DNA of 64,000 bases, from assembly GCA_034231615.1 (NCBI GenBank), contig CM067317.1:51356282-51420281 (forward strand), read 5' to 3'. Both the position numbers and the translations under genes were made by a program. A model generated the notes under the pieces. The model made no database searches. It was given only the letters and a program-made list of their open reading frames with translations, and was not told the DNA's origin. Numbering within the stretch: the stretch's first letter is position 1; every line of letters starts with the position of its first letter. Source of the stretch: Meghimatium bilineatum (taxonomy: Eukaryota > Mollusca > Gastropoda > Stylommatophora > Philomycidae). Below are positions 4,160 to 55,305 of this stretch, in pieces.

Positions 4160-4766
4160 TTAGTCTCTTGAAAAAGTTCTTATTTGGACCGACACATTGA
4201 GAATTGTCCTATTTAGTTTTATTTTTTTTTTTTTTATTTACCTTGTTATATATTTTAATTCCTAGGTACGGTAAGGTTTTCTAGTAACCAGTTTATTGTT
4301 TTTTAGCTTTACCATTTGTTCGTTCGGTTACTGCGGCACCCTCCACTTTTTCGGACACCCTCCGACCATTTGGTTATTTATAGGTGGTCACTACCATGGT
4401 AAGACAGTGCCGCCCACATAGTTTCCATTTCACTATGACACGACACCAGTGAAGGTCAATATTTGAATCTGAGTCTGTCACAATAAATTAGGTACACGCG
4501 AGGGCCATCTCCAGAGAACTCTTCTACGCCTGACGCTGAAAGGTAATAAAGGGTTTAGTGAATAGATAGATAGATAAAAGGTCGTAGTATGTGTATTAAT
4601 TTTATCGCATTTCACGGCACTTTGAAGACACGATTTCAGCTAAGCACCACATCAGCACATCGAGACATAGTAGCTTTAACGATGACTACCACAACGACTT
4701 CAAATTCAAGAAAAACCAAATCACAAATGTCACAAATCCACTTGAATGCGAAACACGACTTATTAA
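4160..4766. other. Intergenic spacer with a SINE-like stretch ending in (GATA)n
   Basis: No coding signal. About 4,437-4,580 is a denser, less AT-rich stretch that ends in GTGAATAGATAGATAGATAAAA. This is the shape of a short retroposon with a simple-repeat tail, but no box A/B promoter was recognised. The last six bases before Element 1 (4,767-4,772) are its left target-site duplication. Confidence 0.35.
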
Positions 4767-4772
4767 GACGCC
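4767..4772 (+). other. Target-site duplication, left of Element 1
   Basis: GACGCC immediately precedes AGTAGTTATAT and recurs immediately after the mirror terminus at 18,828-18,833. A perfect 6-bp duplication at both outer ends marks an integration event. Confidence 0.85.
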
Positions 4773-4869
4773 AGTAGTTATATAGGGATGACTTGATGAA
4801 TATTGCGCAGCAATGCGCAACATTTAGATGGCTCAAAGAAGAAAGTATTGTTGCGCTGCGCAACATTGC

Positions 4870-5390
4870 TCACGAGTGTGCTAATATAGCTCATATAACA
4901 ATATACTCGGTCTGGCGAGGTCGTGCAGGTCGTGCAGAGGTCGTGCAGAGGTCGTGCAGGGCGTGCAAAGGTCGTGCAAAGGTCGTGTCATGTTACTTAT
5001 CTGTACAATATGACGAGGTCGTGCAAAGGTCGTGACGAATGTGCCAGAATGTGCTAATATAGCTCATATAACAATATACTTGATCTGGAGAGGTCGTCCA
5101 AAGGTCGTGTCGAATGTGTCGAGTGTGCTTTATTATAGCCCACATAACATTATACTCGACCTAGAGAGGTGGTGTAAATGGGCGTCATGTTACGCCATGT
5201 TACATAACCAGATACTACTTAACTCATATAACAATATACTGGATACGGAGAGGTCGTGCAAAGGTGGCACCATGCCCCGTGCTGTTACATAACGGGCTTT
5301 AATATAGCCCAAATAACAATAAACGTGTCATACAAAAGTCGGGTAAAGGTCGTCACCTGGTACTTATATGGCTAATATATACCTCATATA
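4870..5390 (+). repeat. Subterminal array of Element 1 (mirror at about 18,210-18,740)
   Basis: Short tandem units of the GGTCGTGCAAA / GGTCGTGCAGA type are interleaved with a longer unit. The longer unit contains GCTCATATAACAATATACT followed by GGTCTGGCGAGGTCGT-like text and is repeated about five times with divergence. It lies 100-600 bp from the element end in both arms. Subterminal repeats near transposon ends are often protein-binding sites. That role is inferred here. Small ORFs in the array are by-products of the repeats. Confidence 0.75.
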
Positions 5391-5394
5391 ATAA

Positions 5395-5545
5395 TGAGAT
5401 GTGAATGTGTCGAGTGTGCGGCTGAATGTACTGAGTGTGCCCGCACATCCCATATGATGGCAGTCGAAACCGGCCGAACCGACCGGCGGTGGGTGTGGTC
5501 CGGAGCGATACCCGGTCGCTGTGGCCGAATCCGGTCAAATTGTGT
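5395..5545 (-). repeat. CG-rich subterminal module, left copy (shared with 60.6 and 63.4 kb)
   Basis: On the minus strand this reads CGGTTTCGACTGCCATCATATGGGATGTGCGGGCACACTCAGTACATTC in overlapping pieces. It is homologous to about 60,660-60,800 and 63,465-63,600, where GCACACTCAGCACATTCGATT is tandemly repeated. It is much richer in CG than the rest of the arm. Confidence 0.7.
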
Positions 5546-5629
5546 ATCTAATGATGCGAATGTGTGGGGTGGGGCTGGTATTTGGTAGTGGAATTGTCCC
5601 TTTATTTGTTTTGCTGATACAAGGAGCTA

Positions 5630-6450
5630 GGCTCGTGATAAAGAAAATTTTCAATGCGACTTCCAGTGAATGAGGTCTATATAACCCCATCTCTCCACCT
5701 TGTGTGGGTGGGGCTGCGTTTGGTGAGTATTAACATGTTATGACCTTATTTGTTTAGTGGGTATTTTGTGGTTTTTCCACTGAAATTTATTTATGGTACT
5801 ATCTTTTTATATAAAACGAACCAATTTTAAACCACATGTGAAAGAGCACGCAAAGTTCAGATCATAAAACTGCCAGATGCAATATAATTACACTCGCGGA
5901 AACTAGCCAGAACAGTGTAATTAACACATGGTCGTGTCTGGGGTATTGCGGAGATGGTAATAAAAATAAGGTATGGATGCTGTAAGAGCGGTTAAAGGCA
6001 CGTGTATGTGAGTGGGTGCATGGTAGTGACATTTTTTCTTTAGCTGTTAGGCTGACACAATGAGCGGGGCTCGTGATAGAGAAAATTTCCACTGCACCTT
6101 CCAGCGAATGAGATCGGCATAACCCTACCTCCCCCCACTTGTGTCTATGGGGTTGAGTTTGCTGCGTATTAACATGTTATAACTGTATCTGATTAGTGGG
6201 TATGTTGTGGTTTTTCTACTGAAATTTATTTATGACACTATCTTTTATATATTACGAACCAATTTTAAACCACATGTGAAAGATCACGCAAAGTTCAGAT
6301 TGTAAAACTGCCAAATGCAATATAATTACAGTCATGATAAAGAACATGTCCACTGCCACTTCCAGTGAATGAGGTTAGCATAACCCCACCTATTTTTGCT
6401 GGGTATTAACATTAACATGACCTTATTTGTTTAGTGGGTATGTTTGGGAT
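5630..6450 (+). repeat. Duplicated block of about 430 bp in Element 1 arm (mirror at about 17,140-17,970)
   Basis: The succession GGCTCGTGATAAAGAAAATTT, CACTTCCAGTGAATGAGG, a C-rich ACCCCACC stretch, TTAGTGGGTATGTTGTGG, AAATTTATTTATGGTACTATC and CACATGTGAAAGAGCACGCA recurs two to three times (5,630, 6,055 and partly at 6,330). It is non-coding. The 76-aa ORF at 5,862-6,092 (minus) lies within this repeat and I do not consider it a gene. Confidence 0.75.
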
Positions 6451-6454
6451 TTCC

Positions 6455-6970
6455 GCTTACATTCAAGTGGTTATCAAATTGTAAAATACTGACCATAACA
6501 ATGTAAACCCCCGAGACATATAGACACCACAAAAACTAATATTCTGCAAACATACTTCTGTGCCTTTGACCAACGGTTCTCATTTTTTCAAACTTATATT
6601 CAAGTGGTTCTCAAATTGTAAAATCTTGACCATGCAATGTAAAACCCCTGACATATAGACACAACAAAAGCTATATTCTCCAAACATTCTTCTGTGCCTT
6701 TGGCCACTGATTATCATTATTTTATGCTTATATTCAAGTGGTTATCACATTGTAAAAACCTGACCATGAGAATGTAAAACTCGTAACATTGACATCACAA
6801 AAGAAAATATTCTGCAAACATTATTCTGTGCCCTTGGCCAATAGTTCTCATTATTTTATGGTTATGTTAAAGTGGTTCTCACATTGGCCAATCCTGACCA
6901 TACAAATGTAAAACCCATGTTATGTATACACCACAAAAGCTAATATTCTCCAAACAGTCTTCTCTCAGGC
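6455..6970 (+). repeat. Minisatellite of about 140 bp, four units (mirror at about 16,620-17,125)
   Basis: Each unit runs TATTCAAGTGGTTCTCAAAT, TGTAAAATCTTGACCATG, GTAAAACCCCTGACATATAGA, CACCACAAAAGCTAATATTC, CAAACATTCTTCTGTGCC and GGCCAATGGTTCTCATTATT. No coding potential is seen. Confidence 0.8.
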
Positions 6971-7209
6971 CACGCTTCAGCCATGGTCGCTTGATGGTCT
7001 CTGTATGCTCTTCAACTATGTTCTACCATATTATCATTATGGTCTCACTAACTTCTAACAGGGTCTACTTTGGTCCAATATATTCTTAGTATATTTTCGC
7101 TAGAGTCTTAAACTAGGTTCTCATGTGCAGCTTCAATTATGTTCTCTCTGTGTTTTGAGTTATTTTTCTCTACTAAAAGGTTTCTTATTAACATATTTCA
7201 TTAACGCAA

Positions 7210-8120
7210 ACGGCGTGTTTATCAGATGTCGAAATTAACAAGTCACACGAAAACACATTTCAGCCCTTTCTCACTAACAACATAGTACATTTGAGAAGTT
7301 TTATTTGTGTAAACTTAACATTTGTTGGTGTTTTTTCACAACTAGATAAGCCACTTATACGGATTTTCGATGTTTTATTAGTTGTCTAAATTGTCATACG
7401 AAAATACATTTCAGTATTTTTGCAGTAACAACATGACAAATTTTATCGTGTTTGTATTTGTGTGCCTGTACCATGTACCATTTTCCACAATTAACCAATC
7501 TGCTTTTAGTGATTTTCATTATGTTTTATCATTTGTCTAAATTATCATACCACACGAAACATATTTCAGTACTTTTACACAAACATTATAACACATTTTT
7601 TTTTATTTGTGTAAGTACATCATTTACAATTTTTTCACAAGTAACCAACCCACTTTTACTATGTTATCATACTAAAAGAACCCATTTTTCAGTACGTTGC
7701 CACTAACAACATAACACATTTTGCCATGTTTTTATTTGTGGGCCTGCGGCATTTATCAATTTTAGTGATGTTCGTTATGTTTTATCAGTAGTTATCTAAA
7801 TTAGATACCATACAAACCCATATTTCAGTACTTTTGCACAAATATCATAACACATTTACCATGTTTTATTTATTCGCTTTCAACAGTTATTACTATTTTT
7901 GCAATTACACAAGCCGAATTGGGTGATTTTCGTTATGTTTTATCAGATGGCTAAGTTATGATACCATACGAAGCTATTTTTCAGTACGTTGCCATTAACA
8001 ACATAACTTTTGACATGTTTTTATCTGTTGGACAATCACTTATCACTTTTTCACAACTAGGCAAGTTGGTGGTAGCTTTCAGTGTGATCAGACAGTATTT
8101 ATCTCTTTTCAATACTTACA
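7210..8120 (+). repeat. Minisatellite of about 160 bp, five to six units (mirror at about 15,470-16,370)
   Basis: The unit contains TTTCAGTACTTTTGCACAAAC, ACATAACACATTTTGCCATG, TTTTTATTTGTGTGCCTG, TTTTCACAACTAACCAA, and GATTTTCGTTATGTTTTATC followed by TGTCTAAATTATCATACCA. Units diverge by small indels. Short ORFs (for example 7,452-7,706) are repeat translations. Confidence 0.8.
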
Positions 8121-8339
8121 GTTGCGCATTTCACGACATTTAGATACAAAACACGGTTCCAATGAACTTATTTTCATATGGTAAACTGCATGTTTTAGCT
8201 GTTTTCAAAATTATTATCCCATACGAAATAACATGCCAACACTTCTCACTAACCTCCTACACCAATTTGACAAACTTATGTATATGAAACAGCATCGTTG
8301 ATCACTACTCATAGACAATACCAACACATTTCACACATA

Positions 8340-8660
8340 GACCCTGTCAATATCCCGTACTGATAGTCCGTGCTTATCCCCCGTGCTTATACCGCGTTCT
8401 GATATCCCGTGCTAATAGCCCGTGCTGATATCACCTGTCAAAATCCGCTGCTGATATCCGCTGTCAAGATCCGCTGCTATCATCTGGCAAGAACCGCTGT
8501 TGATATCTGCTGTCGAAATTCACTACTGATATCCCCTGTCAAAATCCGCTGGTGATATCCGTTGTCAAAATCCGCTGCTGATATCCGCTATCAAGATCCG
8601 CTACTGATAGCTCTAGTCAAGAACTGATGCTAACATCCCGTGTTGACAATCAACGTGTTG
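8340..8660 (+). repeat. 27-28-bp minisatellite, GATATCCGCTGTCAAAATCC type (mirror at about 14,930-15,240)
   Basis: About a dozen units alternate GATATCCGCTGTCAAAATCC and GCTGCTGATATCCG, with a preceding variant run of CCCGTGCTGATA units. It is CG-containing and compositionally distinct from the AT-rich blocks around it. Confidence 0.85.
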
Positions 8661-8664
8661 CATC

Positions 8665-9795
8665 CCTTTTCACAACTAGGCAAACTGCTTATAACACTTT
8701 TTGCTATGATCGAAAGCATTGGGCGCTGATTTTCTAGACATACAAGGTAAATGTTTCTATTTGTATATACCAACGTCTCATATTACATATTTCCATATGA
8801 CAAATTGCCTGTTTAGCCCTTTTAACAGCTAGGCAAGTCGCTTTTAACACATTTACATATGATAAACTGCATGTTTTTCACTTGTCAGCCGCTTTTAACG
8901 CATTACCATTTGACAAACGGTATGTTTTATCAGTTATCACACCATATGAAAACCTATTACAAGGCGTTTACACTAAAAACACAACGCATTTATCACTTTT
9001 CACAGCTAGACATGCTGATTTTCGTAGTTTTCACAATGAGTAAAGTCACTATTTCAACCGTGTCTAGACTTACAATGACAAATTACATTGGTTTTATGTA
9101 CCAACATGTTTAATTTTACATATAGCCAAATGACAGAAGTCATGTTAATCACTTTTCACAACTAGGCAAAGCCCTTTTAACACATTTTGCTATAATCAAA
9201 GACATTTGGTGGGGCCTTTCTAGACTTACAATGCAAATTTCCTTATTTGTATGTACCAACAAGGTTCATATTACGTATTTCCATAGGACAACTTTCATGT
9301 TTTATCACTGTTCACAACTAGGCAAATCGCTTTTAACAATTGTTGGTATTACGAAAAGCTATGTGTGGTGGTTCTCTAGACTTACACTGTAAATTTTCCT
9401 ATTTTTATGCACCAACCGGTTTCATATTGCATATTTCCAAACGACAAAGTTCATGTTTTATCACTTTTCACAGCTAGCCAAAGCGATTTTTAAAATTCTT
9501 TTCATATGACAAACGACATGTTTTATTAGTTTTCTAAATTATCAGGTTATATGAAACCACATTACAATACGTTAACACTAAAAAACATAACGCATTTAAG
9601 CACTTTTCACAGCTAGACACCACCTTTCGAAGTTTTCGCAATGAGCAAAGACATTATTTTGCTCGTTGCTAGACTTACAAAGGCAAATTACCATACTTTT
9701 ATGTACCAACAAGGTTCATATTATATATGTCCATATGACAAGCTTCAGGTTTATTACTTTTCTTAATTAGGCAAACCGCGTTTCGCAAACCCCTA
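8665..9795 (+). repeat. Minisatellite of about 175 bp, six to seven units (mirror at about 13,785-14,905)
   Basis: The unit contains CTTTTCACAACTAGGCAAA, CGCTTTTAACACATTTTGC, TCTAGACTTACAATGCAAAT, TTGTATGTACCAACAAGG, and TTCATATTACATATTTCCAT followed by ATGACAAACTGCATGTTTTA. It occupies most of the region between the gene and the 27-bp array. Confidence 0.8.
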
Positions 9796-10217
9796 GCTAT
9801 AACCCTGGTGATATCACATGACATTAGCCAAGGCCGATAGCCCCTGTTGACACCCATGACAATGACCTAGGACATTACACCCTGTTAATAGCTCATCCGG
9901 ATATCACCCTACTAACAAACCATACTAATATAATATTCGTTATTAACACCAACACGACTATAAAAAAACCCTGATACAGGACTATCTGGCTAGGAACAAC
10001 TGACACATTTCTTACAACTAAATACCGATACAATATAAGAGGCGTTGTTGTTGGTTATGGTTTGCATATATTTCCCAGTTATAAGACAAATATATACACC
10101 AAGCTAAACTCAACAATATATTTTTAAAAAAAAGACAATCACATATAAAAAAAATACTGACAAATACAGAAAAGACATACACAGAACAATTTAACAACGC
10201 AGGTTGCCTCATAATGG

Positions 10218-10223
10218 TTTATT
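10218..10223 (-). terminator. Polyadenylation signal of the left C2H2 gene
   Basis: AATAAA on the minus strand, about 110 bp past the stop codon. It is conserved at 13,351-13,356 in the mirror arm. Confidence 0.55.
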
Positions 10224-10332
10224 GAATCATTTGAACGACATACATAGCGTAGTTAGAAAGGGGCATATGTTGGTGTCAGCATTTACTATCTATAAGAATA
10301 GCTTCAATTGGTTGTGCCGGTTGTCTAAACAC

Positions 10333-11226
10333 TCAACCCAACAGATGGTCGTTTATAAAATATAAGTCGAAAGATGTTCCCACAATGTTCTCCAGCTGAT
10401 ATTTGGTATTTGGCCGCGTATTCTGGACAACATTCATAGGGTCAGATTCGTTAACTTTCTGAACAAAGAGGTCAAAGTCGTGTCTATTATTTATCAGCGC
10501 TGGGTACTCTAAAACAGCCGAGTTGTTAACTGAGCCGTGAAAAAATCTTGGTTCTAATGTCTCTCGATGCCGTAATATCAAATGTTTGGAAAAGTTCACT
10601 TTGAACCTCTTAGTTTGGTCAGTGAACATGGGTCTTGGAACCTCATTCCAGTCTTGTATATGAGGTATCGTTGGGGGATGAAAAAACGTGTAAGTCGCGC
10701 TGGACTTACGAACTGTGATATGTGTATGTATAGTTGACCAATTATCGATATATATTTGCTGTATGTCCAATGGTAAACCAGCTAAAAAATCGAAGTGGGG
10801 TGAGTTAGGTGCCCGTGGTGTTAGTGCTCTTATGGTGCCGTTATTGTCTGGTAGTAGTGGTTGTGGTGATAATGGAGGTACACTGTTTTCAGAGGTAGCA
10901 GACAGCGACAAGGGCGATGTAATTTCCAAAACTGCTGCTAACGAACAGCCAGTCATATGTGGGGGTGAAACTGATAACGTTAGTGGTGTAACTGGCGCGG
11001 ATGCATGACCAACACGCCCGTTCATTTGTTCTTGGTGTTTCTTTACGTGCCGCTGTAAAGACGCAACATCAGAATAGTCACTCTTACAAACAGAACAGTT
11101 ATATCGACGCTTAATGTGCAAATTCTGACAATGTCTACGCAGTGTATATACGCGTTTAAACTCTTTCCCACAAGTTTCACAGGCGTAGGCTTTGCTACCC
11201 GGGGCGACCTGGTGATGATAAAACAC
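10333..11226 (-). CDS. C2H2 zinc-finger protein of Element 1 (intact left copy)
   Basis: A 297-codon ORF, read outward from the palindrome centre. Two C2H2 fingers lie near residues 16-37 (C-x2-C-x12-H-x4-H, CETCGKEF...) and 43-63 (C-x2-C-x12-H-x3-H, CSVCKSDY...). A Ser/Pro/Thr-rich linker spans about 65-145. A conserved-looking globular C-terminal domain spans about 147-297, with NWSTIHTHITVRKSSATYTF, TKRFKVNFSKHLILRH, SVNNSAVLEYP and RPNTKYQLENI. From family knowledge, this C-terminal arrangement resembles the region that precedes the polymerase core in large C2H2-plus-protein-primed-PolB ORFs of invertebrate mobile DNA. Here the protein stops at the point where the polymerase part would follow. 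The true N-terminus is uncertain. A pyrimidine-rich acceptor-like CATCACCAG ends six codons after the ORF's first ATG (VAPGSKAYAC follows), so this may be the last exon of a spliced gene. A Kozak-like ACCACCATG with MPVCHC lies about 160 bp upstream. Confidence 0.7.
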   Translation of the reverse strand: MFYHHQVAPGSKAYACETCGKEFKRVYTLRRHCQNLHIKRRYNCSVCKSDYSDVASLQRHVKKHQEQMNGRVGHASAPVTPLTLSVSPPHMTGCSLAAVLEITSPLSLSATSENSVPPLSPQPLLPDNNGTIRALTPRAPNSPHFDFLAGLPLDIQQIYIDNWSTIHTHITVRKSSATYTFFHPPTIPHIQDWNEVPRPMFTDQTKRFKVNFSKHLILRHRETLEPRFFHGSVNNSAVLEYPALINNRHDFDLFVQKVNESDPMNVVQNTRPNTKYQLENIVGTSFDLYFINDHLLG

Positions 11227-12346
11227 AAAGATGTCAATAGGACAAACACATATATTTTAGTCGATGTAACAACCAAACCATAATAAAAGCAGCGTTTAAT
11301 AACAGAATATACGCAATAATACACACTAATTATAACCACACAGAGCTAATGCAGTGACAAACGGGCATGGTGGTTAGTTCGCTACATACCGACGAGGTAA
11401 GCAGCATAAAAACTAACATACATCATATAACAAAACAAAGGTATTACATACAACCAACGTACCGGTTGAACTGAAACCATAACGGCTAATTAGACAACAA
11501 CAGAGGTTAGCTTTTCGGTTATCTATTATAACTCTGTAACACACTAGAAAACACGTTGGGTGTTGGTAGTTCAAAGAACACGACTTAATGAGACCACTAA
11601 GGACTGTTACGGATATTTATTAGCCCTGGGGAACCAAATTACTATTTTCACTAACCCTAATCGTCATGAAAACTTCTATATGTCTATGTACCAGTGAATT
11701 AGTTTTTTTTAACTAGTCATAAGCGAACTTTTATCACACCAAGCAAATTCAACCACATCCCCTCCTCTTATCACTATAGCCACTAACACATACAAGGTGA
11801 CTAGTAATAAGAGGAGGGTATGTGGTTGAATTTGCTTGGTGTGATAAAAGGTCGCTTATGACTAGTTAAAAAAACTCACTGGTACATAGACATATAGAAG
11901 TTTTCATGACGATTAGGGTTAGTGAAAATAGTAATTTGGTTCCCCAGGGCTAATAAATATCCGTAACAGTCCTTAGTGGTCTCATTAAGTCGTGTTCTTT
12001 GAACTACCAACACCCAACGTGTTTTCTAGTGTGTTACAGAGTTATAATAGATAACCGAAAAGCTAACCTCTGTTGTTGTCTAATTAGCCGTTATGGTTTC
12101 AGTTCAACCGGTACGTTGGTTGTATGTAATACCTTTGTTTTGTTATATGATGTATGTTAGTTTTTATGCTGCTTACCTCGTCGGTATGTAGCGAACTAAC
12201 CACCATGCCCGTTTGTCACTGCATTAGCTCTGTGTGGTTATAATTAGTGTGTATTATTGCGTATATTCTGTTATTAAACGCTGCTTTTATTATGGTTTGG
12301 TTGTTACATCGACTAAAATATATGTGTTTGTCCTATTGACATCTTT
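11227..12346. promoter_or_regulatory. Shared central region between the divergent C2H2 genes
   Basis: About 1.1 kb separates the two divergently read genes, with the palindrome centre at about 11,788. Because the two halves are mirror images, each gene has the same upstream region: an ACCACCATG at 12,202-12,207 (mirror at about 11,366-11,371), a TATAATAG at about 12,042, and a possible intron up to CATCACCAG. The promoter role is inferred from geometry. Confidence 0.35.
11777..11800. other. Palindrome loop of Element 1
   Basis: CCTCCTCTTATCACTA on the left pairs with TAATAAGAGGAGG on the right. The roughly 24 unpaired bases between them (AGCCACTAACACATACAAGG and neighbours) are the only non-repeated part of the element. 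Confidence 0.8.
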
Positions 12347-13241
12347 GTGTTTTATCATCACCAGGTCGCCCCGGGTAGCAAAGCCTACGCCTGTGAAACT
12401 TGTGGGAAAGAGTTTAAACGCGTATATACACTGCGTAGACATTGTCAGAATTTGCACATTAAGCGTCGATATAACTGTTCTGTTTGTAAGAGTGACTATT
12501 CTGATGTTGCGTCTTTACAGCGGCACGTAAAGAAACACCAAGAACAAATGAACGGGCGTGTTGGTCATGCATCCGCGCCAGTTACACCACTAACGTTATC
12601 AGTTTCACCCCCACATATGACTGGCTGTTCGTTAGCAGCAGTTTTGGAAATTACATCGCCCTTGTCGCTGTCTGCTACCTCTGAAAACAGTGTACCTCCA
12701 TTATCACCACAACCACTACTACCAGACAATAACGGCACCATAAGAGCACTAACACCACGGGCACCTAACTCACCCCACTTCGATTTTTTAGCTGGTTTAC
12801 CATTAGACATACAGCAAATATATATCGATAATTGGTCAACTATACATACACATATCACAGTTCGTAAGTCCAGCGCGACTTACACGTTTTTTCATCCCCC
12901 AACGATACCTCATATACAAGACTGGAATGAGGTTCTAAGACCCATGTTCACTGACCAAACTAAGAGGTTCAAAGTGAACTTTTCCAAACATTTGATATTA
13001 CGGCATCGAGAGACATTAGAACCAAGATTTTTTTCACGGCTCAGTTAACAACTCGGCTGTTTTAGAGTACCCAGCGCTGATAAATAATAGACACGACTTT
13101 GACCTCTTTGTTCAGAAAGTTAACGAATCTGACCCTATGAATGTTGTCCAGAATACGCGGCCAAATACCAAATATCAGCTGGAGAACATTGTGGGAACAT
13201 CTTTCGACTTATATTTTATAAACGACCATCTGTTGGGTTGA
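12347..13241 (+). pseudogene. C2H2 zinc-finger gene of Element 1 (right copy, frameshifted)
   Basis: Mirror copy of the intact gene at 10,333-11,226. The frame is open to codon 233 but has seven T's instead of six in the run at about 13,027-13,035 (after CCAAGA). This shifts the frame and ends translation at 13,048. The rest of the homologous reading frame continues without stops to a TGA at 13,239-13,241. At least one substitution is also seen (Pro to Leu in the NEVPRPMF segment). Both zinc fingers remain. A single homopolymer indel could be a sequencing error, so the loss of function should be confirmed. Confidence 0.8.
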
Positions 13242-13350
13242 GTGTTTAGACAACCGGCACAACCAATTGAAGCTATTCTTATAGATAGTAAATGCTGACA
13301 CCAACATATGCCCCTTTCTAACTACGCTATGTATGTCGTTCAAATGATTC

Positions 13351-13356
13351 AATAAA
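13351..13356 (+). terminator. Polyadenylation signal of the right C2H2 copy
   Basis: AATAAA (ATTCAATAAACC), about 110 bp past the homologous stop. Mirror of 10,218-10,223. Confidence 0.55.
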
Positions 13357-16300
13357 CCATTATGAGGCAACCTGCGTTGTTAAATTGTTCTGTGTATGTC
13401 TTTTCTGTATTTGTCAGTATTTTTTAAATATGTGATTGTCTTTTTTTTTAAAATATATTGTCGAGTTTAGCTTGGTGTATATATTTGTCTATAACTGGGA
13501 AATATATGCAAACCATAACCAACAATAACGCCTCTTATATTGTATCGGTATTTAGTTGTAAGAAATGTGTCAGTTGTTCCTAGCCAGATAGTCCTGTATC
13601 AGGGTTTTTTTTTAGTCGTGTTGGTGTTAATAACGAATATTATATTAGTATGGTTTGTTAGTAGGGTGATATCCGGATGAGCTATTAACAGGGTGTAATG
13701 TCCTAGGTCATTGTCATGGGTGTCAACAGGGGCTATCGGCCTTGGCTAATGTCATGTGATATCACCAGGGTTATAGCTAGGGGTTTGCGAAACGCGGTTT
13801 GCCTAATTGTGAAAAGTGATAAACCTGAAGCTTGTCATATGGACATATATAATATGAACCTTGTTGGTACATAAAAGTATGGTAATTTGCCTTTGTAAGT
13901 CTAGCAACGAGCAAAATAATGTCTTTGCTCATTGCGAAAACTTCGAAAGGTGGTGTCTAGCTGTGAAAAGTGCTTAAATGCGTTATGTTTTTTAGTGTTA
14001 ACGTATTGTAATGTGGTTTCATATAACCTGATAATTTAGAAAACTAATAAAACATGTCGTTTGTCATATGAAAAGAATTTTAAAAATCGCTTTGGCTAGC
14101 TGTGAAAAGTGATAAAACATGAACTTTGTCGTTTGGAAATATGCAATATGAAACCGGTTGGTGCATAAAAATAGGAAAATTTACAGTGTAAGTCTAGAGA
14201 ACCACCACACATAGCTTTTCGTAATACCAACAATTGTTAAAAGCGATTTGCCTAGTTGTGAACAGTGATAAAACATGAAAGTTGTCCTATGGAAATACGT
14301 AATATGAACCTTGTTGGTACATACAAATAAGGAAATTTGCATTGTAAGTCTAGAAAGGCCCCACCAAATGTCTTTGATTATAGCAAAATGTGTTAAAAGG
14401 GCTTTGCCTAGTTGTGAAAAGTGATTAACATGACTTCTGTCATTTGGCTATATGTAAAATTAAACATGTTGGTACATAAAACCAATGTGATTTGTCATTG
14501 TAAGTCTAGACACGGTTGAAATAGTGACTTTACTCATTGTGAAAACTACGAAAATCAGCATGTCTAGCTGTGAAAAGTGATAAATGCGTTGTGTTTTTAG
14601 TGTAAACGCCTTGTAATAGGTTTTCATATGGTGTGATAACTGATAAAACATACCGTATGTCAAATGGTAATGCGTTAAAAGCGGCTGACAAGTGAAAAAC
14701 ATGCAGTTTATCATATGTAAATGTGTTAAAAGCGACTTGCCTAGCTGTTAAAATGGCTAAACAGGCAATTTGTCATATGGAAATATGTAATATGAGACGT
14801 TGGTATATACAAATAGAAACATTTACCTTGTATGTCTAGAAAATCAGCGCCCAATGCTTTCGATCATAGCAAAAAGTGTTATAAGCAGTTTGCCTAGTTG
14901 TGAAAAGGGATGCAACACGTTGATTGTCAACACGGGATGTTAGCATCAGTTCTTGACTAGAGCTATCAGTAGCGGATCTTGATAGCGGATATCAGCAGCG
15001 GATTTTGACAACGGATATCACCAGCGGATTTTGACAGGGGATATCAGTAGTGAATGTCGACAGCAGATATCAACAGCGGTTCTTGCCAGATGATAGCAGC
15101 GGATCTTGACAGCGGATATCAGCAGCGGATTTTGACAGGTGATATCAGCACGGGCTATTAGCACGGGATATCAGAACGCGGTATAAGCACGGGGGATAAG
15201 CACGGACTATCAGTACGGGATATTGACAGGGTCTATGTGTGAAATGTGTTGGTATTGTCTATGAGTAGTGATCAACGATGCTGTTTCATATACATAAGTT
15301 TGTCAAAATGGTGTATGAGGTTAGTGAGAAGTGTTGGCATGTTATTTCGTATGGGATAATAATTTTGAAAACAGCTAAAACATGCAGTTTACCATATGAA
15401 AATAAGTTCATTGGAACCGTGTTTTGTATCTAAATGTCGTGAAATGCGCAACTGTAAGTATTGAAAAGAGATAAATACTGTCTGATCACACTGAAAGCTA
15501 CCACCAACTTGCCTAGTTGTGAAAAAGTGATAAGTGATTGTCCAACAGATAAAAACATGTCAAAAGTTGTTATGTTGTTAATGGCAACGTACTGAAAAAT
15601 AGCTTCGTATGGTATCATAACTTAGCCATCTGATAAAACATAACGAAAATCACCCAATTCGGCTTGTGTAATTGCAAAAATAGTAATAACTGTTGAAAGC
15701 GAATAAATAAAACATGGTAAATGTGTTATGATGTTTGTGCAAAAGTACTGAAATATGGGTTTTTATGGTATCTAATTTAGATAACTACTGATAAAACATA
15801 ACGAACATCACTAAAATTGATAAATGCCGCAGGCCCACAAATAAAAACATGGCAAAATGTGTTATGTTGTTAGTGGCAACGTACTGAAAAATGGGTTCTT
15901 TTAGTATGATAACATAGTAAAAGTGGGTTGGTTACTTGTGAAAAAATTGTAAATGATGTACTTACACAAATAAAAAAAAATGTGTTATAATGTTTGTGTA
16001 AAAGTACTGAAATATGTTTCGTGTGGTATGATAATTTAGACAAATGATAAAACATAATGAAAATCACTAAAAGCAGATTGGTTAATTGTGGAAAATGGTA
16101 CATGGTACAGGCACACAAATACAAACACGATAAAATTTGTCATGTTGTTACTGCAAAAATACTGAAATGTATTTTCGTATGACAATTTAGACAACTAATA
16201 AAACATCGAAAATCCGTATAAGTGGCTTATCTAGTTGTGAAAAAACACCAACAAATGTTAAGTTTACACAAATAAAACTTCTCAAATGTACTATGTTGTT

Positions 16301-18054
16301 AGTGAGAAAGGGCTGAAATGTGTTTTCGTGTGACTTGTTAATTTCGACATCTGATAAACACGCCGTTTGAGTTAATGAAATATGTTAATAAGAAACCTTT
16401 TAGTAGAGAAAAATAACTCAAAACACAGAGAGAACATAATTGAAGCTGCACATGAGAACCTAGTTTAAGACTCTAGCGAAAATATACTAAGAATATATTG
16501 GACCAAAGTAGACCCTGTTAGAAGTTAGTGAGACCATAATGATAATATGGTAGAACATAGTTGAAGAGCATACAGAGACCATCAAGCGACCATGGCTGAA
16601 GCGTGGCCTGAGAGAAGACTGTTTGGAGAATATTAGCTTTTGTGGTGTATACATAACATGGGTTTTACATTTGTATGGTCAGGATTGGCCAATGTGAGAA
16701 CCACTTTAACATAACAATAAAATAATGAGAACTATTGACCAAGGGCACAGAATAATGTTTGCAGAATATTTTCTTTTGTTGTGTCAATGTTACGAGTTTT
16801 ACATTCTCATGGTCAGGTTTTTACAATGTGATAACCACTTGAATATAAGCATAAAATAATGATAATCAGTGGCCAAAGGCACAGAAGAATTTTTGGAGAA
16901 TATAGCTTTTGTTGTGTCTATATGTCAGGGGTTTTACATTGCATGGTCAAGATTTTACAATTTGAGAACCACTTGAATATAAGTTTGAAATAATGAGAAC
17001 CGTTGGTCAAAGGCACAGAAGTATGTTTGCAGAATATTAGTTTTTGTGGTGTCTATATGTCTCGGGGGTTTACATTGTTATGGTCAGTATTTTACAATTT
17101 GAGAACCACTTGAATGTAAGCGGAAATCCCAAACATACCCACTAAACAAATAAGGTCATGTTAATGTTAATACCCAGCAAAATCACCCCCACCGGCATAA
17201 GTGGGGGTAGGTGGGGTTATGCTAACCTCATTCACTGGAAGTGGCAGTGGACATGTTCTTTATCATGACTGTAATTATATTGCATTTGGCAGTTTTACAA
17301 TCTGAACTTTGCGTGATCTTTCACATGTGGTTTAAAATTGGTTCGTAATATATAAAAGATAGTGTCATAAATAAATTTCAGTAGAAAAACCACAACATAC
17401 CCACTAATCAGATACAGTTATAACATGTTAATACGCAGCAAACTCAACCCCATAGACACAAGTGGGGGGAGGTAGGGTTATGCCGATCTCATTCGCTGGA
17501 AGGTGCAGTGGAAATTTTCTCTATCACGAGCCCCGCTCATTGTGTCAGCCTAACAGCTAAAGAAAAAATGTCACTACCATGCACCCACTCACATACACGT
17601 GCCTTTAACCGCTCTTACAGCATCCATACCTTATTTTTATTACCATCTCCGCAATACCCCAGACACGACCATGTGTTAATTACACTGTTCTGGCTAGTTT
17701 CCGCGAGTGTAATTATATTGCATCTGGCAGTTTTATGATCTGAACTTTGCGTGCTCTTTAACATGTGGTTTAAAATTGGTTCGTTTTATATAAAAAGATA
17801 GTACCATAAATAAATTTCAGTGGAAAAACCACAAAATACCCACTAAACAAATAAGGTCATAACATGTTAATACTCACCAAACGCAGCCCCACCCACACAA
17901 GGTGGAGAGATGGGGTTATATAGAACTCATTCACTGGAAGTCGCATTGAAAATTTTCTTTATCACGAGCCTAGCTCCTTGTATCAGCAAAACAAATAAAG
18001 GGACAATTCCACTACCAAATACCAGCCCCACCCCACACATTCGCATCATTAGAT

Positions 18055-18206
18055 ACACAATTTGACCGGATTCGGCCACAGCGACCGGGTATCGCTCCGG
18101 ACCACACCCACCGCCGGTCGGTTCGGCCGGTTTCGACTGCCATCATATGGGATGTGCGGGCACACTCAGTACATTCAGCCGCACACTCGACACATTCACA
18201 TCTCAT
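18055..18206 (+). repeat. CG-rich subterminal module, right copy
   Basis: Mirror of 5,395-5,545, in the same orientation as the copies at 60.6 and 63.4 kb. It contains two degenerate GCACACTCRGYACATTC units after a pyrimidine-purine CG-rich stretch (GACCGGGTATCGCTCCGG). Confidence 0.7.
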
Positions 18207-18827
18207 TATTATATGAGGTATATATTAGCCATATAAGTACCAGGTGAAGACCTTTACCCGACTTTTGTATGACACGTTTATTGTTATATGGGCTATATTA
18301 AAGCCCGTTATGTAACAGCACGGGGTATGGTGCCACCTTTGCACGACCTCTCCGTATCCAGTATATTGTTATATGAGTTAAGTAGTATCTGGTTATGTAA
18401 CATGGCGTAACATGACGCCCATTTACACCACCTCTCCAGGTCGAGTATAATGTTATGTGGGCTATAATAAAGCACACTCGACACATTCGACACGACCTTT
18501 GGACGACCTCTCCAGATCAAGTATATTGTTATATGAGCTATATTAGCACATTCTGGCACATTCGTCACGACCTTTGCACGACCTCGTCATATTGTACAGA
18601 TAAGTAACATGGCACGACCTTTGCACGACCTTTGCACGCCCTGCACGACCTCTGCACGACCTCTGCACGACCTGCACGACTTCGCCAGACCGAGTATATT
18701 GTTATATGAGCTATATTAGCACACTCGTGAGCAATGTTGCGCAGCGTAACAATACTTTCTTCTTTGAGCCATATAAATGTTGCGCATTGCTGCGCAATAT
18801 GCATCAAGTCATCCCTATATAACTACT

Positions 18828-18833
18828 GACGCC
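18828..18833 (+). other. Target-site duplication, right of Element 1
   Basis: GACGCC follows ...ATAACTACT and matches the left copy exactly. The reconstructed empty target would read ...TTATTAA-GACGCC-ATCTG. Confidence 0.85.
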
Positions 18834-42039: not shown

Positions 42040-44019
42040 TGTACGGTATAGATACAATGCTATTGCAAAGCACTTATACCAAAACACTTGATGCCTACAT
42101 TGACTTTACCCTTCATGCTATACAACAGTTACGTTTTCCTAAACTACGTCACTCTAATCTCACTAGATCAGAGTCACGGGCGCTCTCCAAACTTCGCTCA
42201 CGTGATGACATCGTGATTAAACCGGCTGATAAGGGTGGCACTGTAGTTGTGTGACATAAGGACCTATATATCAAAGAAGCCACGCGCCAGTTAGAGGACT
42301 TGGATTTCTATCGTCCCTGTGCCACGGATCCAATTTTAGCACATAATGATAAAGTGGACAAAAGTCTTAAACAACTTACCGGTATTAACAGCAATCAACT
42401 CCCCATTAGTGCCCTCAAACTTCGGATTATTAAAAGCATTCTGGGCTCTCCTGCTCTGTATTTACTACCTAAAATACATAACCCATCTAACCCAGGTAGA
42501 CCAATTGTTTCCGCCTGTTCTTGTTCAATTGAATTAATGTCTGATTTCTTAGACAGTGTCTTCCAACCTCTTGTCGCATCTCTTCCATCTTACCTAAAGG
42601 ACACTAACCATGCTCTATCCATCTTTTCTTCTATTGCTCTCTATCCTCTTCACACCTATCACATATTCCTTCTAGATATTGTTTCCCTCTATACATGTAT
42701 TCCTCATAATGATGGGCTTCTGGCGTTACAATTCTTTCTTAACATCAATCCGCATAAGTTTATTGCTACTGCCGCTATTCTTCGACTGGCAGAATTAGTT
42801 CTCACCTTGAATTCTTTTGAATTCAATGGGCACTTTTTTGATCAAATTAGCGGTGTAGCGATGGGTACTAAAAAGGGACCCACTTATGCCTGCCTATTTA
42901 TGGGTCACCTTGAACATCTTATCTTTACCACATTTCAGGGCCCTGTCCCTTCCATATTCCATCGCTACATAGACGATGTGTTTGGGGTTACTGATATTTC
43001 TCTTGATAACCTCAACCTTTTCATTGACTTTGTGAGTGGTTTCCATCCAGCTATTAAATTTACCTCTCTTATTTCCTCAACCTCTGTGAACTTCCTTGAC
43101 ATTTGTGTTTACATAGGATCCACATCCCTTACCACTTCTGTACATTATAAGCCTACAGCCTCTCATAGCTTTCTTCTTTATACATCATCTCACCCAAGGT
43201 CTTGTCGTCATGCCCTCCATTTCTCTCAGCTGCTTCGTCTTCGTCGTCTCTGCCAAGACGATGTAGATTATCAGGTTCAATCTCTTAAGATGCTGGATTT
43301 TTTTTGCCGTCGCTTATACCCTGAGGCTATCCTGTCATCAGCTTTACAACGTGTTCTTACTATTTCCCGCTCAGTGGCCCTCGTACCATCTATTAAACAT
43401 ACCACTGATCGCCCAATACTGGCTATCACTTTTCATCTTCATAATAGGATACTACGTATCCCTATTAGGACATTTCTCTATCCTTCAGTTAGATCCCATC
43501 TCCAGTCCTGCATTTCCCTCTCTTCCACTAGTCGCTTTTCGGAGGGACAGAAACTTTCCGGATCTCTTAGTTCATTCTCGTCTGCGCACTTCTGCAGGTC
43601 AACTAGGAACTGTCCCTTGTCATCGAAATTGTTTGACTTGCCCTTTTGTTATTCTCACTCCCATGTTACAGTTTCCTAAATCACACTTTGATATTCAGGA
43701 TTCTTTTTCATGTTTGTCCCGTAATTTAATATACTCTATCATATGTAAGCGTTGTGATATGAAGTATATTGGTGAGACTGGTAGACGTTTGGCAGATAGA
43801 TTCGCCGAACATTTGAGAGATATCACGAATCATCGTGACTCCCCAGTGGCTAATCATTTTAACAGTCCGTCACATAACGGTAGCTCTGATGTCTCTGTAA
43901 CCGGTTTGTTACGTTGTTATACCGGTGACCGGCAACGTCAGTCCTTGGAATATCGTCTCATTTGTCATATGGGAGTCTTGAAACCACACGGAATGAACAT
44001 TAATCACCATTTTGTTTGA
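42040..44019 (+). pseudogene. Penelope-like retroelement, plus-strand copy
   Basis: A long open frame (42,300-43,679) carries RT motifs YLLPKIHNPSNPGRPIVSAC, FLLDIVSLYTCIP, GVAMGTKKGPTYACLFMG and the catalytic box FHRYIDDVFGV (42,960). A 1-nt frameshift near 43,460-43,480 moves to the frame ending at 44,019, with the zinc-binding and GIY-YIG part (LTCPFVILTP, YSIICKRCDMKYIGETGRRL, ADRFAEHLRD). A TGA replaces a Trp codon at 42,252, next to IKPADKGGTVVV. It is otherwise well preserved and better than the mirror-oriented copy at 24-26 kb. The N-terminal part is truncated compared with that copy. Confidence 0.9.
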
Positions 44020-44523: not shown

Positions 44524-45249
44524 ATTCCCTTACAAGATTCCCCCGATAACGCCAACTAACAACCCAAGCTGATAAAACACGGTCACCGGATACTCACCCC
44601 AGGCTGTGTTAATTATCTCTCCCGTTTCGAGAACGCTCCAAACGAAAAGCAGCGGGCGTCCCAGTATGTATAATGAACAGGTAAAATCCAGGTTCCTAAA
44701 ATTATTTGGCGTCGTTTTTGTGAAAGGGGCATATGATATAACATACCGTGTGTGTCTTCTTTAATATCATTTACAACCATCCAAGTCTTATCAGAATCCG
44801 ATAATTAGTGTGGGAGATATGGTTTTGTAAAAATTAATTATTTTGTATTGTATTTGTATTTTTTTATATTTGTGTGTGTGTGTTTCCTTTTGTTTTGATT
44901 TTGTTTATTAATATTAATTATTAATATTATGCAATATACACACATGATGCCAGAATATACAATACATATAGTTGACAAACAGCTATTTATTTTAATAATT
45001 TTGAATATGTCTAAATAAATGTATACAAGAGTTCTAACCACACATAGAACGAACGCTGGTAACACTAGCGAACATCTGGCAACCGTTAACTGCCCCTGGT
45101 CACGGAGGGCGTGAGATCACAACGGGAGGCAATTAATCAACCCTTAAGTTAACACCAAGTGAAAACACGGCTCAGAAACATCTATCAGGGAAAATAGTCT
45201 CTAAAAGTAATTACAACCAACTTTAAGTCTGTCTCACTTTCTCTATCTC

Positions 45250-45252
<3 letters not shown>

Positions 45253-45323
<71 letters not shown>

Positions 45324-45362
45324 ACACACACACACGCACGAACACACACACACACACACACA
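45253..45362. repeat. (CA)n microsatellite, expanded in the left arm only
   Basis: About 110 bp of CA. The mirror position (about 59,040-59,060) has only a short GTGTGCGTGTGAGA stretch. Confidence 0.95.
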
Positions 45363-45970
45363 TACATTAGTTTAAAACTAATATTGAATGTTTATGTACT
45401 ATACATGCCGACTTCTACAATAAGTATAAAATTATATCAATGGCTTTTAATTATTTCGTTCAGAATACATTATATTCTATACGTTATGGTCGGTAAATTT
45501 TTTGTTTTTTTAAAATAAATTATTAATATTATGCGATATACACACATGCGGCCGGAATATACAATACATATAGTTGACAAACAGATATTTATTTTAATAA
45601 TTTTGACTGTCTATAATCTTTATAAAGTCCCACAAACGTTCTAACTACCAAATAGACCGAACGCAGGTAAACCAACATCTGGAAACTATTATATGCCCCT
45701 GAGGCTGTGTCAATGATCTCCCCCGTATCAAAATGCACACTAGGGTGTAACCGGCGATGGTCTCGGTATGTACGCTGTATGAAAAGATAATATCCCTGAA
45801 CCAAAAAATAAGTTGGGGATCGATATAAAAAACACCCGTATGATATAACTTAATGTATATTTCTTCTTTTATATCTTTTACAACCATCCTATTCCGATGA
45901 AAATCCGACTACGTGGTCGGGAATTATGGTTGTGTTTTGAAAATAAAAGGCTTAAAACCAATGTTAAGTT

Positions 45971-45994
<24 letters not shown>
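45971..45994. repeat. (TC)12 microsatellite (mirror (GA)n at 58,401-58,427)
   Basis: Pure TC run in the left arm. The mirror copy in the right arm is of similar length. Confidence 0.95.
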
Positions 45995-46001
<7 letters not shown>

Positions 46002-46518
46002 TTTGTTTAACTAATACTATATATAATAATCAATATGTGTTATATACAAAACACACAGACTTCTACAATAAGTATACAATTATTTTTTCCCTATATTACG
46101 TTGACATCGTTATATTTTTGGATTTTGTATTAAGTTATATAGAAACTACATTTCACGATCGTTCGTTGGACCCCACACACTCCTGTTTTATAAATAAACA
46201 CGTACAATGCGTGTTTATTGTGTGGCAGCGATGGTACAAAATCTCACGGTGCTCCAGATTTAACAGCGTCATCCTTTGACACGGCGAGCGAGATTTCACA
46301 TCACCATTTGACGCATTACACCAGATTTCACACCATCCTTCGGCTATTGGATCCAGATTTCATAGCATCCGCGGACACTTGACGCCAGATTTCACAACAT
46401 TATTCTTTGGTAATTTGATCAAGCGTTTAATCCTCGCCGCGTTTATAGACAACATCATTGACAACAGCAGACACATACACACACAACTTACATTCTGATT
46501 TCACCACCATTTTATCAG

Positions 46519-46842
46519 ATGAGTAGCAAGCATATTTGTATCCTAATAGTTTCTATAACAATTCTAGCATTACCAGATTGGACTTATCTTAATCGGCTTG
46601 GGGACAAAATACCATCTGTAGAGGCTTCAGGTGTCATATTTTGCATTTCTGTTATTAATCTTGAGGACAAAATATCATCTGTAGATTCTTCAGGTGTCAT
46701 ATTTTGCATTTCTGTAATTATTCGCTTGTTCGATTATTCCCTTCAATTCAGTTTGCTTTTCAGACCAATAGTATCAGCTAATGTACAGTTTTATTTTGTT
46801 GTTGTCAAGTATATGTTAACCGCATATATTCTTACATTCTGA
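46519..46842 (+). CDS. Small conserved ORF of Element 2, left copy (tentative)
   Basis: 107 codons, also open at 57,553-57,876 (minus) in the mirror arm with about ten substitutions. It starts MSSKHICILIVSIT with a hydrophobic N-terminus. It then has two copies of a motif of about 20 residues (GDKIPSVEASGVIFCISVI / EDKISSVDSSGVIFCISVI) and ends in a second hydrophobic stretch. It reads toward the palindrome centre. An open frame in both arms is suggestive, but the internal repeat and AT-rich composition could keep it open by chance. Confidence 0.3.
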   Translation: MSSKHICILIVSITILALPDWTYLNRLGDKIPSVEASGVIFCISVINLEDKISSVDSSGVIFCISVIIRLFDYSLQFSLLFRPIVSANVQFYFVVVKYMLTAYILTF

Positions 46843-47383
46843 CTGTAGTTACATGAGCATTAATAGTAGTGTCAGCTATTTATGTTGTTGACATTCATGA
46901 TTTCTATTAAATTGTGCATATGCTGTTATTCTATGCCACTTGAGCATTTTCAATTTTCTTTTTGACACCAACATTTTCAGCTAGCGGTACGTTACAGGAG
47001 TAAATACAGTTCCAACGCACAGTACCTTGTGGGCGTAACTGAAGTTTTAACTCACAGCACTTTACTGCATGTTTAACTCCCAGTGCATTACAGAATCAAC
47101 TGTTTTTATCTGAATTTTTTGGTGGTTTTGGAAGGTAATAATTGTAAAAGCGATATTATGCGTAGAGGGGTCAGTGGATTAGGACTTTGTTGTCACCTTT
47201 GTCTACCATTGTTGTAACTCCTTTTTACATTTTATATTTCAATATGTAGCAATTTGAGAGAATTTTTGTAGAGTAAATATTCATAGCATGACAGTTGTGT
47301 TCCGTGTGGGCTGATTGAAAATTGTTTGTGGGTGTTAACTTGTACAGCCTTTGTACTTGTAGCTTGGTGTTAACACATGTACG

Positions 47384-47566
47384 TCATATACATAGGTAGA
47401 AACATAGCCAGGTTGTGAGATACATCTCTAGGGTACCGAAATACCTCCAGGTGGTTGTATACATTTCATGGTTTGTATTAGCTTTTGGCTTATTAGTAAG
47501 GAAGGCCCGACCCGGTCTTCTTATTACTAACAACATAAAACATTCGGGTCTGTGAATAAGAGACAA
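47384..47566 (-). CDS. 60-codon ORF after an acceptor-like site, left copy (tentative)
   Basis: The minus strand has TTATTCACAG followed by a frame with PECFMLLVIRRPGRAFL and ending WLCFYLCI. The mirror (56,804-56,986, plus) is open with two substitutions and TTTTTCACAG. A possible alternative last exon of the neighbouring spliced gene. No homology is recognised. Confidence 0.3.
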   Translation of the reverse strand: MSLIHRPECFMLLVIRRPGRAFLTNKPKANTNHEMYTTTWRYFGTLEMYLTTWLCFYLCI

Positions 47567-47824
47567 AATATTACATACTACAAAGAAAACTCGGTTGGCT
47601 GTCGTGGTGTGACATCATCTGAATCGGGTAAGGAGCAACTGGTGAACATAAGGGAATATACTAATATTGTCATATTAATGCGTATCTTACATAATCAATA
47701 AGTTTTATGTAAACAAACCAAACTAACAAAAAAAAACTGACACATATGATTATACACATAACACAACATTTAGTACAACATAGAGACAAACTATAATTAC
47801 AGCGAAGATAATAAAAAAGCATAT

Positions 47825-49087: not shown

Positions 49088-49384
49088 TGCGTGTAAATGG
49101 GAAATGGCGGTATTGGTTGGTGTACGTTTGGTTAACTTGTATGAATGCTATGGTTTAATGTTATAGGTGTCTTTTATAAGGGTGTGGATAAAGAGGCTAC
49201 TAGCAGTGGAACCCCCACGTTATCGGACATACTTGACCATGATTAATTATAAAACTAAGTGATACGATATATAACTCTTAACGGGACTGGTAATGGTTTA
49301 TGTAGTCGTACTAAGACACCTGATGAAATGGTGAAATAAGACACCACAACTGAAATGGCACTGAACCAGTGGGTGTTGCTGGGT

Positions 49385-49389
49385 AAGTT
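49385..49389 (+). other. Target-site duplication, left of the LTR retrotransposon
   Basis: AAGTT precedes TGTGACAGTC and recurs at 54,010-54,014. The empty site in the other arm contains one copy. Confidence 0.85.
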
Positions 49390-50347: not shown

Positions 50348-50909
50348 CTGTTGCAAGTGACCAAGGATCACCGAGTTCGACAATTCACAACGCGGATTAC
50401 TGGCCATAATACGATCGACGGATAATACAGGATTTTCAGAATATTCGAAGTTGTGTATTAAGTTTTAGAGCATTGTGTTAGTATTATTGGAAAATTCGAA
50501 GGACAAGAAGAGTCACACGAGTGAGTAGGATTACCTTTGACATTTTTACGACACGATTAATGGTGTATTAAGTTTATAAACATTGTGTTGCGAAATAATT
50601 AAGACGGAACAATGTATGATGAAAATTGTGAAGAACTGTGTGACGAGAAATAGTTATTCCGTACAAGATATTTGACCACATGAACAATGGCGTTTTAAAT
50701 TAAAATATCAACATTTATGTATTTTTTGTTTCTTCTCTCGTTCTTCTTATAATTGTGTTTAAGACATACGTGTATCTGTCGCAGAATCAAGTACGTTATT
50801 TAGAATAGTAACCTACTCCATGTTTATAGTCAGTTAAATACACACATGCGTTCACATGCTTGATATAGATTGTATTAAGCATAGGAACCTGATAAAATAA
50901 TATAAATAA

Positions 50910-53114: not shown

Positions 53115-53128
53115 AAGGAGGAGAAGAG
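53115..53128 (+). other. Polypurine tract
   Basis: AAGGAGGAGAAGAG immediately before the 3' LTR: the expected primer for plus-strand DNA synthesis. Confidence 0.85.
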
Positions 53129-54009: not shown

Positions 54010-54271
54010 AAGTTTACGACCTATAGAAGCTTCCGTTTGCACGTGCATTATAAAGCACTAACGGCCATTACAATACACAATCAGCATTTTAGAGATAAAG
54101 AGGACTAGGATACCGTTATTACGCAGGTATAAAATACACACATGTATTTTATCTGTATTTGTGTATGTGTGACTATATTAATTTTTTTTCAAAAAAAAGG
54201 TTGCTCATCAAATTTAAAAAAAACACCGATTATGGTTCCCAACTAGCACAGGACCCCGTGTTACACGGGCC

Positions 54272-55222: not shown

Positions 55223-55305
55223 ACACCTATAACATTAAACCATAGCATTCATACAACTTAACCAAACGTACACCAACCAATACCGCCATTTCCCATTTAC
55301 ACGCA

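Follow-up and report, generated by a model that had tools for sequence, protein, structure and literature searches.

A palindromic element with Polinton ends

We analysed a stretch of 64,000 nucleotides (hereafter the window) from the stylommatophoran gastropod Meghimatium bilineatum (GenBank assembly GCA_034231615.1, contig CM067317.1, positions 51,356,282 to 51,420,281, forward strand), which carries a 14-kb palindromic element with ends of the Polinton (Maverick) type. The element occupies positions 4773-18827 as a palindrome of 14,055 bp, with GACGCC duplicated on either side. A first-pass annotation had described it as almost entirely palindrome, and this is confirmed by an inverted self-match of 14 kb (E=0) and by the alignment of the arms: BLAST of the left arm against the reverse-complemented right arm gave 98.92% identity over 7,033 columns with 42 mismatches, and MAFFT gave 46 mismatches and six gap runs, part of these at the centre. 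The spacer between the arms measured 25 nt instead of the 24 nt first assigned to the loop. Both termini carry AGTAGTTATATAGGGATGAC; the 5'-AG ends noted earlier were correct, and the finer reading is 5'-AGTAGT. GACGCC occurs ten times in the window against 7.7 expected. Because the hexamer is common by itself, the claim of a target-site duplication (TSD) at the element borders depends on its position and on the TSDs of other copies.

The available text of PMC8097293 gives the terminal motif of Mavericks as (AGT)2 or (AG)3, the commonest ends of vertebrate Mavericks as (AGT)2//(ACT)2 with 6-bp TSDs, and the size of intact vertebrate Mavericks as 16.9 ± 1.7 kb, with terminal inverted repeats (TIRs) of 46-1,447 bp and a mean of 402 (PMC8097293). 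The window element shares with Polintons the (AGT)2//(ACT)2 ends, the 6-bp TSDs and, as described below, the terminal sequence of gene-bearing Polintons in the same genome. It differs from them in that its TIR of about 7 kb is the whole element, with one long open reading frame (ORF) per arm and no unique interior. From these shared ends, TSDs and partner homology, we firmly read the window element as a non-autonomous Polinton derivative that is nearly all TIR. The features of the element are collected in Table 1.

Table 1. Coordinates of the palindromic element and its features in the window (aa, amino acids)
Feature	Position	Strand	Basis
Left TSD, GACGCC	4767..4772	.	sequence
Left palindrome arm, outer end AGTAGTTATATAGGGATGAC	4773..11776	+	self-alignment
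Left terminal (AGT)2 repeat, Maverick end motif	4773..4778	+	sequence and literature
134-bp minisatellite, left arm; mirror at 16613-17121	6455..6963	+	
156-bp minisatellite, left arm; mirror at 14076-14510	9063..9484	+	
297-aa ORF: two C2H2 zinc fingers and PolB-N-like domain	10333..11226	-	homology to gene-bearing Polintons of this genome
Central spacer (loop), 25 nt, within the recurring centre	11777..11801	.	self-alignment
Right arm, reverse complement of left, 98.9% identity	11802..18827	-	self-alignment
Right-arm mirror ORF, 233 aa, shortened by frameshift	12347..13048	+	ORF list, arm alignment
Right terminal (AGT)2 repeat	18822..18827	-	sequence and literature
Right TSD, GACGCC	18828..18833	.	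sequence

A family of palindromes and its gene-bearing partners

The genome (1.61 Gb, 32 contigs) was searched for relatives, which are named here by contig and position, in Mb where shortened. Two gene-bearing elements, at C8:56561523-56576742 (15.2 kb) and C12:28295861-28315483 (19.6 kb), have the same 20-bp ends, and their two sides differ inside. Each has equal 6-bp flanks, that of the C12 element being an uninformative TA repeat. Over its outermost 80-100 bp, the window element is 88-90% identical to the ends of these partners. The C8 partner encodes an integrase with rve (8.3e-16) and chromo (1.9e-07) domains as well as an adenovirus-type protease (3.6e-05), and the C12 partner encodes an Adeno_IVa2-like ATPase (2.5e-05); the partner integrase has 3,766 protein-database relatives at E <= 0.001. 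The first-pass annotation had pointed to an autonomous partner sharing the ends and carrying integrase and PolB. Gene-bearing partners with these ends do exist, with integrase, ATPase and protease between them, and the integrase part of the proposal holds for the C8 copy. As to PolB, both partners encode on the minus strand, toward the right end and split over several frames, a PolB-like protein that we label so from its motifs; it had no PolB match in Pfam, PHROGs or PDB sequence searches. The genome contains 19 matches to PF03175 (PolB), none of them inside the 46 end pairs listed, which are part of the family. The C12 partner also contains, at C12:28304001-28306700 (L070 1-2700), a 900-aa open frame with DUF1280 that is nearly identical in a neighbouring C12 copy and that may be an N-RAG-like mobile gene inserted in the Polinton.

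When 176 open stretches of the left arm were compared with pieces of the two partners, matches were confined to the PolB-N-like ORF and to terminal-repeat stretches; integrase, capsid and protease sequences did not turn up in the arm against these partner pieces. With the Polinton gene set absent from it by this comparison, we regard the window element as a Polinton derivative and not as a complete Polinton. The ORF itself matches the N-terminal part of the PolB-like partner proteins, at 53% over 133 aa and 27% over 175 aa for C8 and at 45% over 163 aa for C12, and it matches 26 further genomic places at 40-44%, 18 of which lie in open frames of 1,401-1,482 codons. A protein database search with the ORF yielded 1,167 candidates, none at E <= 0.001, and an AlphaFold model of the ORF alone had a pLDDT (predicted local distance difference test score) of 31.

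With up to two mismatches, the 20-bp end motif occurs 139 times in forward and 132 times in reverse orientation, compared to 5 and 4 times for the backward control; the 19-base end motif had no match in viral contigs. Of the 106 ends listed, 92 could be joined into 46 converging pairs, with a limit of 25 kb between the two ends, and 14 are unpaired. These 46 pairs are only part of the family; their lengths run from 4.0 to 19.6 kb, with a median of 13,781 bp and quartiles at 12.7 and 14.8 kb. The first-pass annotation had also proposed looking at the 6-bp flanks of further copies, and these proved to be exact in 22 of the 24 end pairs read, or in 21 if our reading of C1:3.68 (e39), counted as TSD-bearing with an extra AGT unit at its left end, is excluded. 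Among the 22, the two pairs from C12 fall within TA repeats and are uninformative as TSDs. The remaining pairs, e46 (C1:111.3) and C23:59.8, differ by one letter, and the C16:41.28 pair stands outside the count, its sequence stretch having stopped short of the end. (AGT)2 was present at all termini compared except one with (AGT)3; most ends were found with a motif containing (AGT)2, those of C1:68.3, C8:16.28 and C3:49.0 independently of it. The three AGT units of L039 (C1:3676136) are a possible trace of imprecise jump-back in protein-primed replication. The right ends L040 and L041 (C1:3684016 and C1:3950041), 266 kb apart, have the same flank, GGAGAG, which suggests that a segmental duplication took an element end along with it. 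A chance palindrome or chance TSD, for which GACGCC alone would have lacked significance, is ruled out at the level of the family.

The palindromic centres recur as well. For the 891-bp centre of the window element, there are at least 26 full-length genomic matches and at least 14 partial ones (about 400-690 bp) among the 40 of 74 candidates scored, and for a second centre, taken from C3:44.72, at least 28 full-length and 12 partial matches among the 40 of 419 candidates scored; a third type was seen at C1:86.96 and C25:94.3. Only a full-length match proves palindromy, for with a palindromic query even a one-sided match shows up on both strands; a full-length match requires both arms, so those copies are palindromic. 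In six window-class pairs, three of which were positioned from inverted ORF pairs, the centre lies -4, -8.5, 116, -5, -0.5 and 1 bp from the midpoint between the end motifs. For class 2, the offsets in eight of nine pairs are 14.5, 1, 0, -42, 0, 0, 0.5 and -54.5 bp, and in the ninth (C22) the centre was matched in one half only. The C7:48.7 pair likewise has a palindromic centre and C1:33.2 an inverted ORF pair at its midpoint; for these two and for C2:92.4, C3:11.22 and C9:60.3, the centre sequence itself was not taken. We place the window element in a large family of palindromic 'satellite' Polintons, whose centres are of at least three kinds. As to the dimer envisaged by the first-pass annotation, the element is not a one-off dimer, the same centre and loop recurring in many copies.

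Comparison of the classes revealed a mosaic. The window element and C3:44.72 have the outer arm in common at 84-94% in pieces, and arm positions 4313-5084 at 97%; farther inward, no similarity was found between the window arm and C3:44.72, whose inner part is still palindromic (99% over 1,467 bp). C9:14.65 has only 85-107 bp on each side of the loop in common with the window element, with other sequence around. Inner segments, and even the centre, vary between classes and are symmetric wherever seen. We also considered a simple origin by duplication of a right end, since e44 and e51 have outer arms that match the gene-bearing element C8:56.56 at its right end. It was not adopted, as neither the direction of the ORF nor the outer-inner mosaic agrees with one simple truncation.

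Concerted arms and a retained reading frame

The arms are nearly identical within a copy, while the copies differ among themselves. We compared 1.9 kb of inner arm from 22 of the at least 26 full-length window-type centres, namely those most like the window copy. In 15 copies, the sister arm was the nearest of the 43 other arms, and the other seven form a near-identical burst; a maximum-likelihood tree joined the two arms as sisters in all 15, with starred support in 14 and values of 97/74 for L011. One of two tandem copies at C20:14.36-14.37 Mb (L021) was left out of the site counts. The palindromes there, at C20:14356070 and C20:14369130, are separated by 13.06 kb, have almost identical sets of arm differences and probably represent a tandem duplication of an inserted palindrome. 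Across the 21 remaining copies, the minor allele of biallelic sites stood in both arms at 162 sites (82 private to one copy and 80 in at least two copies), in a single arm of a single copy at 79, and in one arm each of at least two copies at 4; 13 sites were mixed, one of them adjoining the loop and differing between the arms in most copies. A recent burst of six copies had 11 single-arm singletons, one two-arm private site and the loop-border site, together with three linked sites common to one arm each of two copies. Arm differences and two-arm private states were unevenly spread (27 and 4 in L013, 0 and 5 in L012, 1 and 7 in L030), the window copy having 12 arm differences in this comparison. 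According to the two-arm and one-arm counts and the burst, changes that predate insertion nearly always stand in both arms and later changes in one, and the arms seem to be homogenised mainly around transposition.

The outer arms follow the same pattern. Among 14 exact-motif pairs read at both ends, the arms were near-identical in ten (1.4-1.5 kb seen) and not so in four, C1:3.68, C1:111.3, C8:56.56 and C12:28.30. Terminal repeat units were counted over the outer 1.5 kb of the ten arm-identical pairs and of the window element. In 10 of these 11, the two arms had the same number, which ranged from 1 to 12 among the ten; the exception was C3:11.22 with 15 against 13 units. Of the four pairs lacking arm-long identity, one had equal numbers. 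The palindromic family with concerted arms is firm for the window class, and the other classes were seen in pieces.

The distinction between two-arm and one-arm changes also bears on the ORF. In the 21 copies, and in columns with at least 40 letters, two-arm changes were found in 47 of 891 ORF columns and in 110 of 974 columns of the rest of the compared arm, and one-arm changes numbered 40 and 35 in the same columns (Fisher exact p = 0.0008). Three changes to stop codons were all among the one-arm changes. Non-synonymous to synonymous counts were 30:17 for two-arm and 23:12 for one-arm changes, compared to an expected 2.5-3.2:1. Judging by the density of changes, the PolB-N-like ORF appears to be under constraint during the mobile phase, with two cautions: some of the non-ORF part consists of variable A/T sites, and the sites cannot be treated as independent of one another. 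The retained ORF may help to initiate replication.

A second ORF was observed at the class-2 centre (L073 3-449, L099 1715-2050), where zinc fingers can be recognised by eye. It reads toward the centre and continues into a stretch related to the protein that the C12 partner encodes between ATPase and integrase. Both palindrome classes have kept one zinc-finger-type ORF near the centre, each joined to a different Polinton protein.

Proposed fold-back replication and its alternatives

The published case for protein-primed replication of Polintons is built on their gene content and end motifs, and the end repeats of Mavericks are suggested to serve jumping-back during this process (PMC8097293). 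We consider it rather probable that the present family is a Polinton-derived palindrome family that replicates through a fold-back hairpin and has its arms re-homogenised in each cycle; the hairpin step itself is likely. In such a cycle, the polymerase and terminal protein of the partners, acting in trans, would start replication at the (AGT)2 end, and the displaced, self-complementary strand would fold into a one-ended hairpin with a duplex of about 7 kb and a single loop. In this hairpin, most arm mismatches would be removed, by mismatch repair or by arm-from-arm copying; synthesis round the loop would regenerate the 14-kb duplex, and the Polinton integrase would then insert it with a 6-bp duplication. 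A hairpin would have a complete origin at its single end, and its distant ends need not pair, which would favour palindromes. The near-unit length (median 13.8 kb) would suit packaging in Polinton capsids, and the (AGT)3 end is the outcome expected of imprecise jump-back. The first-pass annotation had offered two origins, a Polinton-derived giant foldback or a head-to-head dimer arising by protein-primed or hairpin replication. Its Polinton half is carried by the ends, TSDs and partners, and its hairpin half fits the re-homogenised arms.

Several observations weigh against this reading. Homogenisation is incomplete, as three linked one-arm states occur in two copies and 13 further sites are mixed; it would thus sometimes fail, and mismatch repair would fit better than copying every time. 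Along the window copy, the mismatches between the arms show mild clustering (p ~0.003 for bins of 250 and 500 bp, 0.07 for bins of 1 kb), a pattern that gene conversion in the chromosome could also give. Only 3 of the 14 partial window-type centres have the ORF on both sides, nine have it on one side and two on neither, and these centres may be decayed palindromes or single-arm relatives. The ratio of non-synonymous to synonymous changes does not tell two-arm and one-arm changes apart, both being below the neutral expectation. Finally, sites were counted over 1.9 kb of inner arm from 21 of the at least 26 full-length centres, those most like the window copy, the name PolB for the partner protein is our assumption from its motifs, and the mechanism as a whole is read indirectly, from sequence.

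The main rival holds that whole palindromes move and that their arms are kept alike in the donors by chromosomal arm-to-arm gene conversion, as in sex-chromosome palindromes, without a hairpin. Concerted arms would likewise result, and both the mild clustering and the linked one-arm states agree with it. It is weakened by the burst, where 11 private one-arm changes stand against a single two-arm change, and by the uneven arm differences, since one rate of conversion poorly fits the 27 unconverted differences of L013 and 12 of the window copy together with the 0/5 and 1/7 of L012 and L030. We judge it unlikely, though it is the strongest competitor of the hairpin. Somewhat less probable still is a fresh origin of every palindrome from a parent, single-arm or complete, by folding of an aborted replication product at a fixed hairpin site, with no transposition of the palindromes as such. 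This would give each copy identical arms from the start and a common loop, and the several centre classes imply that palindromes arose more than once; moreover, with 14 of the 40 scored window-type centres partial and nine of these carrying a one-sided ORF, single-arm relatives may exist. However, the three linked one-arm states in two copies are most easily derived from a palindromic parent, and the partial centres may be decayed palindromes, the one at C8:62.57 having outer arms on both sides.

Two further explanations can be set aside more readily. A foldback element of another superfamily (Galileo/FB or Mutator-like), with long inverted repeats acquired by convergence, is very improbable given the 6-bp TSDs, the (AGT)2 ends, the 80-100 bp of terminal sequence (88-90%) in common with elements encoding an rve integrase and adenovirus-like proteins, and the homology of the window ORF to the N-terminal part of a Polinton protein. 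Perfect palindromes are a recognised assembly hazard, but an inverted duplication from mis-joined reads is rejected almost outright by the 46 arm differences of the window element, by copies on many contigs with their own TSDs and different flanks, and by centres at the midpoint between independently found end motifs.

Among known systems, an analogy may be drawn with the self-complementary and snap-back genomes of parvoviruses such as adeno-associated virus (AAV) and with the palindromic genomes of defective adenoviruses, which are similarly self-complementary, form one-ended hairpins and depend on a helper. Those viral genomes arise as by-products or were engineered as vectors, whereas the present palindromes form chromosomal families of tens of copies. 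Like miniature inverted-repeat transposable elements (MITEs), the palindromes have no movement genes of their own and are presumably mobilised in trans; MITEs, however, are short, and the palindromic Polintons are near unit length with a seemingly constrained ORF. With Galileo and FB of Drosophila, the family shares very long inverted repeats containing internal tandem repeats. TSD, ends and relatives of the window element are those of Polintons, and it is these ends that set it apart; Galileo is assigned to the P superfamily.

Among the titles and abstract openings listed for palindromic, foldback or non-autonomous Polintons and Mavericks and for molluscan Mavericks (subscription papers and preprints lying outside the scope), none describes palindromic Polintons. 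The new point here is the concerted arms; Polinton ends and 6-bp TSDs were already known. Such palindromes would be a natural record of Polinton replication, in which mobile-phase mutations stand in both arms and post-insertion ones in a single arm, so that each copy has its own clock and its own control. The replication intermediate thereby becomes testable by counting, and selection in the mobile phase measurable apart from decay. The family further indicates that a TIR can grow to the whole element and still amplify, and annotation that expects a TIR plus an interior may overlook such palindromes or drop them as artefacts. It is possible, and we propose it tentatively, that palindromic Polintons are a distinct class of replicon: inherited self-complementary satellites that pass through one-ended, single-arm hairpins, erase arm differences nearly every cycle, are held by the capsid at packaging length and supply their own PolB-N initiation or terminal protein.

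Elsewhere in the window, a second large inverted repeat spans 44524-59788. Its arms, at 95.7% identity for 4.1 kb and 94.3% for 0.7 kb, enclose a spacer of several kb, and no (AGT)2 ends were seen at its borders. A Penelope-like reverse transcriptase is encoded at 42255-43679; its named matches are mostly from gastropods, the best named relative being a protein of the slug Arion vulgaris (65% over 74%).

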